Shown one piece after another: positions 19,014 to 23,313 of a stretch of DNA of 32,926 nucleotides. The first letter of the stretch is position 1. The number at the start of each line of letters is the position of its first letter. The DNA lies in contig NZ_VICD02000208.1 in the NCBI RefSeq assembly GCF_006546735.2, forward strand, positions 1 to 32,926, written 5' to 3'. The DNA comes from Marilutibacter maris (lineage in GTDB: Bacteria; Pseudomonadota; Gammaproteobacteria; Xanthomonadales; Xanthomonadaceae). The notes under the pieces are model-generated. The model was given only the letters and a program-made list of their open reading frames with translations. It did not search any database and had not been told where the DNA came from. A program made the translations under genes and the position numbers.

Positions 19014-22000
19014 ATGACCCGATCCAAGTCCGCCCCGACCCTTCCGCCCTCCCCTCCACTGCCCCGCAGCGGCCAGCCGCGCGCCTGGTGGCGCGCGCCG
19101 GCCTCGGCCTCGGCGCTGGCCTGGCATGTGCTGCAGGCCGCGCGGACGCATGACGGGCCGTTGCTGGCGATCACCCGCGACAACCACGCCGCCCACCAGC
19201 TGGAAGCCGATCTGCGCACCCTGGTTGGCAGTGGTGCTGGCAGTGGTGCTGACGGGGGCGATGACGCGACGACGCTGCCGGTGCTCGCGTTCCCGGACTG
19301 GGAGACCCTGCCCTACGACGTCTTCAGCCCGCATCCGGACATCGTCAGCCAGCGCCTGGCGGTGCTGCACCGCCTGCCGGACCTGAGCCGCGCCAGCATC
19401 GTGATCGTGCCGGTGCAGACCCTGTTGCAACGGTTGGCGCCCAAGCGACACGTGATCGGATCCAGCTTCGACATCGCGGTCGGCCAGCGCCTGGACCTGG
19501 ATGCCGAGAAGAGGAGGCTGGAGTCGGCCGGCTACCGCCATGTCCCGCAGGTGCTCGACCCGGGCGACTTCGCGGTCCGTGGCGGCCTGCTCGACGTGTT
19601 CCCGATGGGCGCCGAGCAACCGTTCCGGGTCGAACTGCTGGACGACGAGATCGACACCATCCGCGGCTTCGACCCCGAGTCGCAGCGCTCGCTGGAGAAG
19701 ATCGACGCGGTGCGCATGCTGCCCGGTCGCGAGCTGCCGCTGGACGAGGCCTCGATCAAGGAGGTGCTCGACGCGCTGCGCGAACGCTTCGACCTGGATA
19801 CCCGCAACAGCGCGCTGTACCAGGACCTCAAGGCCGGCGTCGCCCCCGGCGGCATCGAGTACTACCTGCCGCTGTTCTTCGAAAAGCCCGGCAGCGCCCG
19901 CCGCGAGGCCGCCGAGGCGACCGCGACCCTGTTCGACTACCTCGGCGAGCGTGCGCTGCCGGTGCTCGGCGACGGCATCCACGAGGCCGCCGACGCGTTC
20001 TGGAAGCAGACCGGTGAGCGCTACGAGCAGCGCCGCCACGACATCGAACGACCGGTGCTGACCCCGGCCGAGCTGTACCTGTCGCCCGACGCCATGCGCG
20101 AGCGCCTCAACAAGGCGCCGCGCATCGAGGTCTGCGGCGAGTCGCATCCGCAGCGCGAACGCGCGCAGGCGCTGGGCGAGCAGCCCGCGCCCAGCCTGCC
20201 GGTGGCCGCGCGCGACCACGCCCCGGGCGAGGCGCTGACCTCGTTCCTGTCCAGCTACCCGGGCCGGGTACTGATCGCCGCCGACTCGCCGGGACGGCGC
20301 GAGGCGCTGCTGGAGGTGCTGGAACCCGCGCAGCTGCGTCCGGCGACGCTGCCGGGCTGGCGCGACTTCCTCGACGGCGACGCCCGCTTCGCGATCGCGG
20401 TGGCACCGCTGGAGGACGGCTTCGCCCTGGATGCGCCGCAGATCGCGGTGCTCACCGAACGCCAGCTGTTCCCCGAGCGCGCCAGCCAGCCGCGCCGGCG
20501 CCGCCGGGTCGGCCGCGAGCCGGAGACCATCATCCGCGACCTCGGCGAGCTGCGCGAAGGCGCGCCGATCGTCCACGAGGACCACGGCGTCGGCCGCTAT
20601 CGCGGGCTGATCGTGCTGGAGGCCGGCGGCGAGCCCGGCGAATACCTGGAGATCGAGTACGCCAAGGGCGACCGCCTGTACGTGCCGGTCGCCCAGTTGC
20701 ACCTGATCAACCGCTACTCCGGCGCCTCCGAGGAGACCGCGCCGCTGCATTCGCTCGGTGGCGAGCAGTGGAGCAAGGCCAAGCGCAAGGCGGCCGAGAA
20801 GGTCCGCGACGTCGCCGCCGAACTGCTGGAGATCCAGGCCAAGCGCCAGGCCCGCGCCGGACTGGCGATCGACGTCGATCGGGCGATGTACGAGCCGTTC
20901 GCGGCCACGTTCCCGTTCGAGGAGACGCCCGACCAGCACGCCGCGATCGAAGCGGTGATCCGCGACCTGCAGTCGAGCCAGCCGATGGACCGGGTGGTCT
21001 GCGGCGATGTCGGCTTCGGCAAGACCGAGGTCGCGGTGCGCGCGGCCTTCGTCGCCGCCAGCGGCGGCCGCCAGGTCGCCCTGCTGGTGCCGACCACCCT
21101 GCTGGCCGAGCAGCACTACCGCAACTTCCGCGACCGTTTCGCCGACTGGCCGCTGCGGGTCGAGGTACTGTCGCGCTTCAAGAGCAGCAAGGAGATCAAG
21201 GCCGAGCTCGACAAGCTCGCCGAGGGCCAGCTCGACGTGATCGTCGGCACCCACCGGCTGCTGCAGAAGGACGTGCGCTTCAAGGACCTGGGCCTGGTGA
21301 TCGTCGACGAGGAGCAGCGCTTCGGTGTGCGCCAGAAGGAGGCGCTGAAGGCGTTGCGCGCCAACGTGCACCTGCTGACCCTGACCGCGACGCCGATCCC
21401 GCGCACCCTGAACATGGCGATGGCCGGCCTGCGCGACCTGAGCATCATCGCCACCCCGCCCGCGCACCGGCTGGCGGTGCAGACCTTCGTCGTGCCCTGG
21501 GACGACGCCCAGCTGCGCGAGGCGTTCCAGCGCGAGCTCTCGCGCGGCGGCCAGGTCTACTTCCTGCACAACGACGTGGAAAGCATCGGCCGCATGCAGC
21601 GGCAGTTGCAGGAACTGGTGCCGGAGGCGCGCATCGGCATCGCCCACGGCCAGATGCCCGAGCGCGAGCTGGAAAAGGTCATGCTCGACTTCCACAAGCA
21701 GCGCTTCAACGTGCTGCTGTGCTCGACCATCATCGAGTCGGGCATCGACATCCCCAACGCCAACACCATCATCATCAACCGCGCCGACAAGTTCGGCCTC
21801 GCCCAGCTGCACCAGTTGCGCGGACGGGTCGGCCGCTCGCACCACCGCGCCTACGCCTACCTGGTCACCCCCGACCGCCGCTCGATCACCCCCGACGCGC
21901 AGAAGCGCCTGGACGCGATCGCCTCGATGGACGAGCTCGGCGCCGGCTTCACCCTCGCCACCCACGACCTGGAGATCCGCGGCGCCGGCGAGCTGCTGGG

Positions 22001-22562
22001 CGAGGACCAGAGCGGGCAGATGGCCGAGGTCGGCTTCAGCCTGTACACCGAGCTGCTCGAACGCGCGGTGCGCTCGATCCGCCAGGGCAAGCTGCCCGAC
22101 GCCGACGAGACCGAGGCCCGCGGCGCCGAGGTCGAACTGCACATCCCGGCGCTGATCCCCGACGACTACCTGCCGGACGTGCACACCCGTCTGACCCTGT
22201 ACAAGCGGATCAGCGGCGCCCGCGACAAGGACGCGCTGCGCGAGATGCAGGTGGAGATGATCGACCGTTTCGGCCTGCTGCCCGACCCGGCCAAGCACCT
22301 GTTCGCGGTCGCCGAACTCAAGCTCGACGCCACCGCACTGGGAATCCGCAAGCTCGACCTGGGCGAGAACGGCGGCCGCGTGCAGTTCGTCGAGAAACCC
22401 AACGTCGACCCGATGGCGATCATCAAACTGATCCAGGGCCAACCCAAGCTCTACCGCATGGACGGCCCGGACAAACTGCGGGTCACCCTGGAGCTGCCCG
22501 ACGCCATCGCCCGCCTGGCCGCGGCCAAAGGGTTGCTGGTGATGCTGTCCAAGGGGGGGTGA
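19014..22562 (+). CDS. mfd: Transcription-repair coupling factor Mfd
   Basis: DNA translocase that removes RNA polymerase stalled at lesions and recruits UvrA. 1182 residues, close to the usual length (about 1150). In order: UvrB-homology modules (LAFPDWETLPYDVFSPHPDI, then DPGDFAVRGGLLDVFP), the RNA-polymerase-interacting domain (EDHGVGRYRGL, YAKGDRLYVPVAQLHLI), Walker A GDVGFGKTEVAVRAAF, motif II DEEQRFG, motif III TLTATPIPRTLNMAM, and RID/TRG elements (ESGIDIPNANTIIINRADKFG, LRGRVGRS). Odd: a small glycine/serine insert VGSGAGSGADGG near residue 70 is encoded by a short tandem DNA repeat. The stop at 22560-22562 is followed within about 100 bases by the tRNA-like element and the cassette array. 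Confidence 0.97.
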   Translation: MTRSKSAPTLPPSPPLPRSGQPRAWWRAPASASALAWHVLQAARTHDGPLLAITRDNHAAHQLEADLRTLVGSGAGSGADGGDDATTLPVLAFPDWETLPYDVFSPHPDIVSQRLAVLHRLPDLSRASIVIVPVQTLLQRLAPKRHVIGSSFDIAVGQRLDLDAEKRRLESAGYRHVPQVLDPGDFAVRGGLLDVFPMGAEQPFRVELLDDEIDTIRGFDPESQRSLEKIDAVRMLPGRELPLDEASIKEVLDALRERFDLDTRNSALYQDLKAGVAPGGIEYYLPLFFEKPGSARREAAEATATLFDYLGERALPVLGDGIHEAADAFWKQTGERYEQRRHDIERPVLTPAELYLSPDAMRERLNKAPRIEVCGESHPQRERAQALGEQPAPSLPVAARDHAPGEALTSFLSSYPGRVLIAADSPGRREALLEVLEPAQLRPATLPGWRDFLDGDARFAIAVAPLEDGFALDAPQIAVLTERQLFPERASQPRRRRRVGREPETIIRDLGELREGAPIVHEDHGVGRYRGLIVLEAGGEPGEYLEIEYAKGDRLYVPVAQLHLINRYSGASEETAPLHSLGGEQWSKAKRKAAEKVRDVAAELLEIQAKRQARAGLAIDVDRAMYEPFAATFPFEETPDQHAAIEAVIRDLQSSQPMDRVVCGDVGFGKTEVAVRAAFVAASGGRQVALLVPTTLLAEQHYRNFRDRFADWPLRVEVLSRFKSSKEIKAELDKLAEGQLDVIVGTHRLLQKDVRFKDLGLVIVDEEQRFGVRQKEALKALRANVHLLTLTATPIPRTLNMAMAGLRDLSIIATPPAHRLAVQTFVVPWDDAQLREAFQRELSRGGQVYFLHNDVESIGRMQRQLQELVPEARIGIAHGQMPERELEKVMLDFHKQRFNVLLCSTIIESGIDIPNANTIIINRADKFGLAQLHQLRGRVGRSHHRAYAYLVTPDRRSITPDAQKRLDAIASMDELGAGFTLATHDLEIRGAGELLGEDQSGQMAEVGFSLYTELLERAVRSIRQGKLPDADETEARGAEVELHIPALIPDDYLPDVHTRLTLYKRISGARDKDALREMQVEMIDRFGLLPDPAKHLFAVAELKLDATALGIRKLDLGENGGRVQFVEKPNVDPMAIIKLIQGQPKLYRMDGPDKLRVTLELPDAIARLAAAKGLLVMLSKGG

Positions 22563-22658: not shown

Positions 22659-22680
22659 GCCACACAGTTCATTGCCGACG
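22659..22680 (+). repeat. Possible attC 5' half-site remnant
   Basis: GCCACACAGTTCATT matches 13 of 15 bases of the array's GCCTAACAGTTCATT and is followed by GCCGACG, which is also the typical L'' segment, with a CAA deletion between. The last seven bases are at the same time the 5' acceptor strand of the tRNA-like element, so the match may be partly accidental. Confidence 0.35.
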
Positions 22681-22766
22681 TGACGGAATTGGTAAACGTA
22701 CCGCCACAGCGGTCCCGGGAGACTCAGGTCTCCCGGGTGCAGGTTCAATCCCTGCCGTCGGCTCCA
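22674..22766 (+). tRNA. tRNA-Leu-like gene with non-canonical anticodon region (possible pseudo-tRNA)
   Basis: Acceptor stem GCCGACG/CGTCGGC pairs perfectly (22674-22680 with 22756-22762), followed by T and an encoded CCA. D arm ACG...CGT holds the loop GAATTGGTAAA, as in tRNA-Leu. T arm GCAGG-TTCAATC-CCTGC is canonical. Between D and T arms are two perfect hairpins: ACCGC-CACA-GCGGT, which would be an anticodon arm with only four loop bases, and a 10-bp stem CCCGGGAGAC-TCAG-GTCTCCCGGG, longer than a normal variable arm. The latter contains CTCAGGT, which is like a Leu(CAG) anticodon loop but lies in the wrong register. The discriminator is T instead of the A expected for Leu. It is unlikely to decode normally; it may be a tRNA pseudogene or a tRNA-like RNA with another role. 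Confidence 0.6.
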
Positions 22767-22867: not shown

Positions 22868-22927
22868 CTCTAACGGTTCATTCAAACCGAGACCGCTTCG
22901 CGGCAAATCTTAATTCGGGCGTTGGCT
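22868..22927 (+). repeat. attC site 1 (60 bp)
   Basis: R'' CTCTAAC, then GGTTCATTCAAACCGAGAC, central CGCTTCGCGG, L' AATCTTAATTC, and R' GTTGGCT with the crossover GTT intact. It opens the array; no intact gene lies to its left. Confidence 0.88.
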
Positions 22928-22930
22928 AGC

Positions 22931-23203
22931 ATGGACAGAAACAAATTGCCGAGAGAAGAAGCTGAGCTCCGCGCCCGTGAGGCGATGTCCGAAGCCCGCA
23001 ACATACAGGCGGAAGCTGCGGCGCGGCAGGCCGCCCGGAGAGAAAGTGCACGCAAGTCAGCCCGTGTTTTCCCGTTGGTTTTTCTTGGCATGGCAGCTGG
23101 AGCTTTAGTGGGGCACTTTGCTTATGGCAACGCGGGCCGTGGACTCCAGATCGGGGCGGCGACCGGGTTCACTGTCGCACTTGCCGCACGGCTTGCTAGC
23201 TAA
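22931..23203 (+). CDS. Cassette 1: small membrane protein of unknown function
   Basis: 90 residues from the ATG at 22931, which follows the attC R' by three bases. The N-terminal 45 residues are highly charged and alanine-rich (REEAELRAREAMSEARNIQ), probably a helical or coiled-coil stretch. They are followed by one long or two short glycine-rich membrane segments (FPLVFLGMAAGALVGHFAYG, then IGAATGFTVALAARLAS). The TAA stop lies inside the R'' core of attC 2. I do not recognise a family. A TTG at 22922 would add three residues but lies in the attC core. Confidence 0.7.
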   Translation: MDRNKLPREEAELRAREAMSEARNIQAEAAARQAARRESARKSARVFPLVFLGMAAGALVGHFAYGNAGRGLQIGAATGFTVALAARLAS

Positions 23204-23313
23204 CAAGGCGGTCCTAGCCGAACCCGCATCGGGGCACCGGCCGGATGCTTTTACGCTACGCTAGTAGCTATCCTCCGCACCGACACAGGTTCGGCTCAAC
23301 TATGGCGTTAGTC
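23198..23313 (+). repeat. attC site 2, enlarged (116 bp)
   Basis: R'' AGCTAAC (23198-23204) and R' GTTAGTC (23307-23313) enclose a perfect 9-bp L stem, AGCCGAACC (23216-23224) with GGTTCGGCT (23288-23296). The variable terminal structure is much longer than in the other sites (about 63 bases instead of about 10) and contains a sub-hairpin GCATC...GATGC (23226-23248). It is the only long attC in an otherwise 60-bp family, so this cassette probably came from a different integron source. Confidence 0.85.

Follow-up and report, generated by a model that had tools for sequence, protein, structure and literature searches.

The DNA analyzed here, referred to as the window, is a stretch of 32,926 nucleotides from Marilutibacter maris (contig NZ_VICD02000208.1). 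Downstream of mfd, it contains an RNA gene that resembles tRNA-Leu, has no anticodon and encodes its own CCA end (Table 1). As judged by eye, short genes with attC-like separators follow one another from here to about 27.1 kb, and this element lies at the left end of the row; the short genes between 22868 and 27150 are mostly of no known kind and lie amid degenerate attC-like sites. The first of these sites folds weakly (z = -1.41, with 20 of 200 shuffles as good). The strict core-site test for an integron gene cassette (R''/R'), which the attC-like sites of the window fail, returned zero attC sites within the window, and no integron integrase over the curated cut-off was found in the window's genome. 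Because the sites are degenerate and the genome has no integrase over this cut-off, the array looks old and devoid of its own integrase.

Table 1. Coordinates of the tRNA-like gene, its parts and its neighbors in the window.
Feature	Positions	Strand	Evidence and remarks
mfd, upstream of the element	19014..22562	+	NF007966, 1412 bits vs cut-off 1329
Anticodon-less tRNA-Leu-like RNA gene, CCA encoded	22674..22766	+	ARAGORN, folding, RF00005, family
Acceptor stem, 5' strand	22674..22680	+	Pairs with 22756-22762; 98.7% of cells paired (n=44); two-sided changes at 4/7 pairs
D arm (ACG...CGT) with A14, A15, G18, G19	22683..22699	+	The four bases in 44/44, pattern-fixed in 42 rows
Stump anticodon arm ACCGC-CACA-GCGGT, 14 nt, 4-nt loop 22705-22708	22700..22713	+	Family stem cells 220/220 paired
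Long variable arm, 10 bp + TCAG loop	22714..22737	+	Pairing largely kept in the family; length and sequence variable
T arm GCAGG-TTCAATC-CCTGC	22739..22755	+	T54, T55, C56, A58 in 44/44, pattern-fixed in 42 rows
Acceptor stem, 3' strand	22756..22762	+	Folding, family alignment
Discriminator U73 + encoded CCA	22763..22766	+	CCA encoded in 3/44 members
Degenerate attC-like site 3' of the tRNA-like gene	22868..22930	+	Resembles attC of the Lysobacter chinensis cassette; fails strict core-site test
Second attC-like site (GCTAAC...GTTAGTC)	23199..23313	+	By eye; missed by strict test

Structure of the tRNA-like element

ARAGORN labels the element 'tRNA-???' on the + strand, and reports no tmRNA within the window. 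The coordinates, strand, stems and encoded CCA of the original prediction were confirmed. The element has a minimum free energy of -49.7 kcal/mol (z = -4.88), which none of 200 shuffles reaches. Both in a whole-genome search and with permissive filters, the element scores 41.5 bits with RF00005, above the gathering threshold of 29; a fast-filter RF00005 scan of the window does not list 22674-22766. The acceptor stem (7 bp), D stem (3 bp) and T stem (5 bp) are fully paired, and the acceptor branch is of the 7/5 type.

The anticodon arm had been predicted to lack a normal loop. Folding bears this out; the pairs of the stump stem have probabilities of 0.84-0.99, and deletion of the stump hairpin costs about 7.6 kcal/mol. 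We also looked for a better fold, i.e., one with a normal 5-bp stem and 7-nt loop, starting at element positions 23-46; none was found, the best candidate having 4 of 5 pairs and lying inside the variable arm. With the anticodon arm reduced to a 14-nt stump, decoding is impossible. Processing in the absence of decoding, one of the roles raised in the original prediction, would fit such an element. The 'perfect 10-bp hairpin' that had been noted next to this arm, CCCGGGAGAC-TCAG-GTCTCCCGGG, is real, but it is not an extra hairpin; it is the class II variable arm. Long variable arms of this type are known from tRNA-Leu and tRNA-Ser.

Members and distribution of the family

BLAST searches of 59 other genomes identified one relative, with 77% identity, in Lysobacter chinensis TLK-CK17. 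A covariance model, R1, was made from these two sequences and run on 395 genomes of the bacterial family to which M. maris belongs, including the window's own. Seven elements were found at 71.3-117.9 bits when that of the window is counted, the six others scoring 71.3-107.5; the next matches score at most 57.6 bits, and the 11 of these that were checked are all tRNA-Leu(CAA).

A collection of 84,980 species genomes was scanned with a pattern, which yielded 44 loci. Of these, 42 were kept; L062 (Halobacillus) and L069 (Herbidospora) were dropped for want of a tRNA fold. In the kept loci, either 6 or all 7 of the acceptor-stem positions are paired. These members come mainly from the Sphingomonadales (Sphingomonas, Sphingobium, Sphingopyxis, Novosphingobium, Citromicrobium, Porphyrobacter and Hephaestia), and otherwise from Rhizobium, Azospirillum, Rhodanobacter, Lysobacter, Pseudoxanthomonas and several MAGs. 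ARAGORN was run on 39 of the 44 loci, L062 and L069 among them, and returned one tRNA-???, one tRNA-Arg and nothing in 37. That is, the element is easily overlooked in genomes, because this program either labels it unknown or misses it.

A further model, R2, found 38 elements at 80.8-105.6 bits in 36 carrier genomes, with the next match at 58.3; there is a single copy in 34 of the 36, and one Sphingobium lactosutens genome has two. When R2 was applied to a Sphingomonadaceae sample, with few candidates scored per genome, at least 8 of 298 genomes carried the element, four of them new. In an Alphaproteobacteria sample it matched 4 of 385 genomes; the sole clear match is a known carrier, two others read as normal tRNA-Leu, and the remaining one is L153. 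A loop-free pattern gave 2 matches in the 298 Sphingomonadaceae, both known stump-arm members; this is a weak test, as it misses 6 of the 8 R2 carriers.

The window element has no match among phage and plasmid records, nor does a Sphingobium member with its upstream region among phages. Comparison of two Sphingomonadales members with plasmids brought up nothing but a damaged copy, which is carried by two plasmids of Sphingomonas paucimobilis (L278 2989-3069 and L279 2989-3069; 49 bits with R2; unannotated stretch); in this copy the 5' acceptor strand is gone and the stump arm is retained. The first, stricter pattern had zero matches in viral contigs. Among 80 stretches read of the 92 that the loop-free pattern returned from viral contigs, the stump arm is absent (69 canonical, 11 with an odd middle). 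In the latter (L190, L194, L219, L220, L226, L231, L245, L247, L251, L252 and L257), an irregular middle replaces the anticodon arm, and the D-arm word, T arm and acceptor are the same as in the family; L194, L245, L247 and L252 have one acceptor stem in common.

Evidence for selection on the RNA

The original prediction had called for a conservation check in related genomes; this uncovered the family, with compensatory changes in every stem. Alignment A4 consists of 44 rows, namely the window element, the 42 pattern loci and L018; L118-L121 and L278/L279 are outside it. Pairing was not lost in relatives: 99.0% of 880 pair cells show standard pairing, the one damaged plasmid copy being outside the alignment. 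Two-sided changes occur at 11 of 20 pairs, in 81 cells compared with 25.3 in shuffles (0 of 500 as many). Further pair types, one of five covariation measures, are unremarkable (22 vs 20.7; 91 of 500 shuffles). In the anticodon stem, where every cell is paired, 4 of 5 pairs show two-sided changes. When the partner is shifted by 1-3 columns, pairing falls to 21-49%, and RNAalifold predicts the same arms for the family.

In 42 of 44 rows, the words of the D and T loops, the C-YNCA-G letters of the stump loop and the length of its arm were imposed by the pattern itself, and their conservation in A4 is therefore of little weight. The pairs of columns 28-31 with 38-41 are almost free of the pattern, column 41 being limited to C or T. 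The 4-nt anticodon-arm loop is seen in 44 of 44 aligned members (pattern-fixed in 42), and also in the ten model-found loci that were read (L015-L020 and L118-L121), with YNCA in nine and TCAA in one; 5 of the 6 loci L015-L020 are pattern loci too, and the models also carry sequence information. An 18-nt T arm, with either an 8-nt loop or a one-base stem bulge, occurs in 30 of 44 rows (A4 columns 79-83) and is absent from all eight gammaproteobacterial rows.

G.U occurs in 11 pair columns (25 cells) and A.C in 4 (6 cells), and this asymmetry points to a functional RNA read from the element's own strand. In all 8 same-locus pairs compared, similarity is higher within the element than in the 100 nt that precede it or the 60 nt that follow; the pairs are not independent, and six of them belong to the rpoB-rpoC set. 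In 3 of the 8, similarity in the next 240 nt exceeds that of the element. In two pairs, L053/L059 and L048/L087, flank homology ends upstream of the element.

Genomic settings and promoter-like boxes

Members are found at unrelated places, i.e., in integron cassettes, between rpoB and rpoC, or alone. Promoter-like boxes were sought in a set of 30 members, from which six rpoB-rpoC and six gammaproteobacterial members were left out; three of the 30 are MAG contigs titled no finer than Proteobacteria. GCTAW/GTTAW is present at -13 to -15 in 22 of the 30 (binomial probability about 1e-30 vs the same loci), and CGGACRTT at -41 to -43 in 12; these motifs were picked by eye on the same, related rows, so that the P values overstate. 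As read from these boxes, the transcript would start at or near base 1.

Might the element instead be a tRNA-shaped processing or stability signal, acting in cis within longer transcripts (rpoB-rpoC, queE-queC, mfd or cassettes), and either cut by RNase P/RNase Z or left as mRNA structure? Six members (L054, L058, L075, L078, L083 and L084) occupy the rpoB-rpoC interval in sense orientation, the proteins having been recognized by reading; there, CAG ahead of the element and CTG behind it can lengthen the acceptor stem, the longest such extension being GATCAG/CTGATC, in L078 and L083. One member, L019/L049, lies between genes that read, by eye, as queE and queC. However, when ORFs up to 3 kb from the 42 members were clustered by blastp, no neighbor gene other than rpoB/rpoC was common to at least three loci, and where the promoter-like box is present, RNA starting at about base 1 would leave little upstream to process. 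We therefore consider a cis signal unlikely; an RNA that acts in trans is favored because it occurs mostly as one copy per genome, changes places and has a promoter-like box. Among Sphingomonadaceae rpoC upstream regions, 2 of 22 readable ones (of 30 loci) hold the element, and several others hold GC-rich repeats, as judged by eye.

Mobility of the element

The original prediction had also raised an integration element. As a site, this is not supported by the data: the RNA gene is itself the cargo, forming one cassette in each of two integron arrays, those of L002/L052 and L016/L073, a cassette-like unit in the window, and a unit at unrelated places in Sphingomonadales. In Lysobacter chinensis (L002/L052), the stretch that holds the element is about 310 bp long, the size of a cassette, and the element is oriented as in a cassette. 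Behind it is a 60-bp site with GCCTAAC/GTTAGGC (L002 1298-1357), recognized by a laxer arm test and missed by the strict one; the attC-like site before it was seen by eye. A 96-codon open frame overlaps the element in this cassette. At L016/L073, the element comes first after a divergently oriented integron integrase (TIGR02249 at 476 bits against a cut-off of 265; 355 aa), and attC core sites that satisfy the strict test lie behind it.

Such a context could also reflect a selfish mobile repeat, which would persist by transposition or cassette exchange and whose fold would be needed as DNA or for mobility. Copies at unrelated sites share no more than the element and some 40-90 nt ahead of it, the left edge of the shared stretch being near -87 in several pairs from Sphingobium, and short repeats flank both sides at several loci. 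S. lactosutens has its two copies, Tn3 and IS110 transposases are about 2 kb from the damaged S. paucimobilis plasmid copies, and a tyrosine-recombinase N-terminal domain (PF13495; L060 197-730), divergent from the element, is found beside it in Sphingomonas sp. BAUL-RG-20F-R05-02. Against this, nearly all carrier genomes have one copy, the excess of G.U over A.C indicates a function as RNA, and no common Pfam family or transposase family was found in the 30 neighbor ORFs tested of 61. Selfish persistence is thus, in our judgment, decidedly unlikely.

TGTCCGC...GCGGACA palindromes flank genes at L081, L067, L076, L085 and others, in Lysobacter and Sphingomonas alike, and at some loci they are on both sides of the element; the Sphingobium loci have ATCGACCATTT-like repeats in their place. 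This flanking TGTCCGC repeat was rejected as a general partner of the element, being weakly enriched (4.4 vs 2.6 per kb) and found at some loci only.

Relation to tRNA-Leu and leucine identity

The window element is 0.71-0.98 alike to the other elements (median 0.83); among the tRNAs of its own genome, the best match, in the upper half, is tRNA-Leu(CAG), at 0.71. In a tree of the core, 33 distinct element cores group apart from tRNA-Leu with support 0.72, and with one misplaced tRNA-Leu. Since the upper halves group together and the elements are most like each other, a single deletion with subsequent spread is a likelier history than local decay on several occasions.

E. coli LeuRS reads the elbow of its tRNA and not the anticodon. 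According to one review, leucine identity in E. coli depends on A73, A15-U48, G18G19, A20a and the D/T (elbow) contacts, and activity is retained by variants of tRNA-Leu from which the anticodon arm and the variable arm have been removed (PMC9976931). In the window element, the bases of the elbow contacts of tRNA (8-14, 15-48, 18-55, 19-56 and 54-58) are present, as is the leucine hinge, A15-U48 with G18G19; the discriminator is U73 rather than the leucine A73. Across the family, U8, A14, A15, G18, G19, T54, T55, C56 and A58 are found in 44 of 44 members, most of the loop bases being pattern-fixed, and U48 in 42. This evidence is weakened in that such bases are kept wherever the tRNA fold is kept. 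N73 is A in 29, G in 10, T in 4 and C in 1 (n=44), with A73 in none of the eight Xanthomonadaceae and Rhodanobacter rows. Besides the few members that encode CCA, L073 has CCA one base further on, while ACCA is encoded in 20 of 20 tRNA-Leu from carrier Sphingomonadales.

Because A73 and CCA have drifted in the family in spite of their presence in these tRNA-Leu, an acceptor function common to the family is doubtful, and steady charging throughout it is unlikely. Binding without charging, or charging in the A73 members only, would be the better fit to these sequences. Exactly one LeuRS over the cut-off was found in each of 27 carriers, and no second, dedicated LeuRS over the cut-off in any of them.

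A decaying tRNA-Leu pseudogene, to which the eroding CCA and the damaged copy on two S. paucimobilis plasmids might point, is already contradicted by the compensatory changes in all five helices counted, by a core tree that depicts one family and not separate local decays, and by an element more alike than its close flanks, so we deem it highly improbable; the original prediction, too, had argued against random decay, and the kept elbow bases and common promoter-like box agree with it. Equally improbable is a working tRNA with an odd loop, in which the closing C-G would open and the 6-nt loop CYNCAG would read codons by its NCA triplet: by eye, the loop shows a likeness to the 5' portion of that of tRNA-Leu(CAG), but the arm is about five nt too short, the first base of the triplet varies (A 36, C 3, T 2, G 3; n=44), and the kept C, A and closing C-G are pattern-fixed, hence no evidence.

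Discussion

From the sequence evidence, we are highly confident that these elements constitute a conserved, non-decoding RNA family, and we think it probable that its RNA acts in trans. LeuRS is a possible but doubtful partner. It is the first candidate because the hinge set is kept while decoding is lost, and because LeuRS need not see the anticodon.

The family would descend from a tRNA-Leu that lost its anticodon. Sequence and covariation show that the upper half of the tRNA (acceptor, D and T arms with the elbow bases) has been retained, as has pairing in the variable arm. Most non-gammaproteobacterial members outside rpoB-rpoC would be transcribed from their own promoter near base 1, as suggested by the statistics of the boxes, whereas those in rpoB-rpoC, in integron cassettes and probably in the window would be co-transcribed with their neighbors. 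Ordinary tRNA enzymes would carry out maturation, and the RNA would then act in trans, outside decoding, through recognition as tRNA-Leu; A73 members could be leucylated by LeuRS, whereas the others could only bind and titrate it. Spread would be horizontal, in the Xanthomonadaceae as an integron cassette, where the context is seen and movement is presumed.

Taken as a whole, this explanation, i.e., a horizontally spread non-decoding RNA from tRNA-Leu that acts in trans as a tRNA-Leu mimic, with LeuRS as first candidate partner, seems to us evenly poised between right and wrong. It is weakened by the patchy distribution and by the single LeuRS, with no dedicated second, in each of the 27 carriers. 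A tentative version, somewhat less likely still, is that after a one-time anticodon deletion the RNA gene travels among Alpha- and Gammaproteobacteria, by integron cassettes and other routes, and serves as trans regulator, decoy or dedicated aminoacyl carrier via LeuRS or another tRNA-binding protein.

Non-decoding tRNA-shaped RNAs are known one by one, and integrons are usually seen as carriers of protein genes. The mascRNA/menRNA of mammals is a small tRNA-like RNA without a working anticodon, eukaryotic and cut from a long RNA. Allo-tRNAs, which also occur in an 8/4 form, have an anticodon. Like tRNA-Leu (class II, RF00005), the family has acceptor, D and T arms, a long variable arm, A15-U48 and G18G19; unlike it, the family has no 7-nt anticodon loop, its arm is about five nt shorter, and CCA and A73 are not maintained. 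It is like the tRNA-like domain of tmRNA in having the upper half of a tRNA without an anticodon, but in the window element the D stem and stump arm are kept. Allo-tRNAs are likewise naturally odd bacterial tRNAs (PMC7590224, PMC7609411), but with a 9/3 acceptor branch (PMC7609411) instead of the 7/5 of the window element. Among published RNAs, the closest in spirit is tRNA-Other of Bacillus cereus, which is described as a tRNA-shaped, non-translational RNA that adjoins a genomic island and is poorly charged in vitro (PMC3399842); unlike the family, it belongs to another lineage and has an anticodon (CCA, per the title of a reference cited there).

No published description of such a family was recognized in a full-text literature search thin on subscription papers and preprints, and the family is apparently undescribed. 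We place it among the non-decoding tRNA-like RNAs; it may possibly be a wholly new class. A conserved family in which the anticodon is deleted and the stump still covaries would mean that natural selection acts on a tRNA devoid of its decoding part, one borne in part by integrons. The family, scattered across both related and unrelated bacteria, suggests that its carriers maintain an RNA with the shape of a tRNA for a task other than decoding, and it offers a direct test of the uses of tRNA recognition outside translation.
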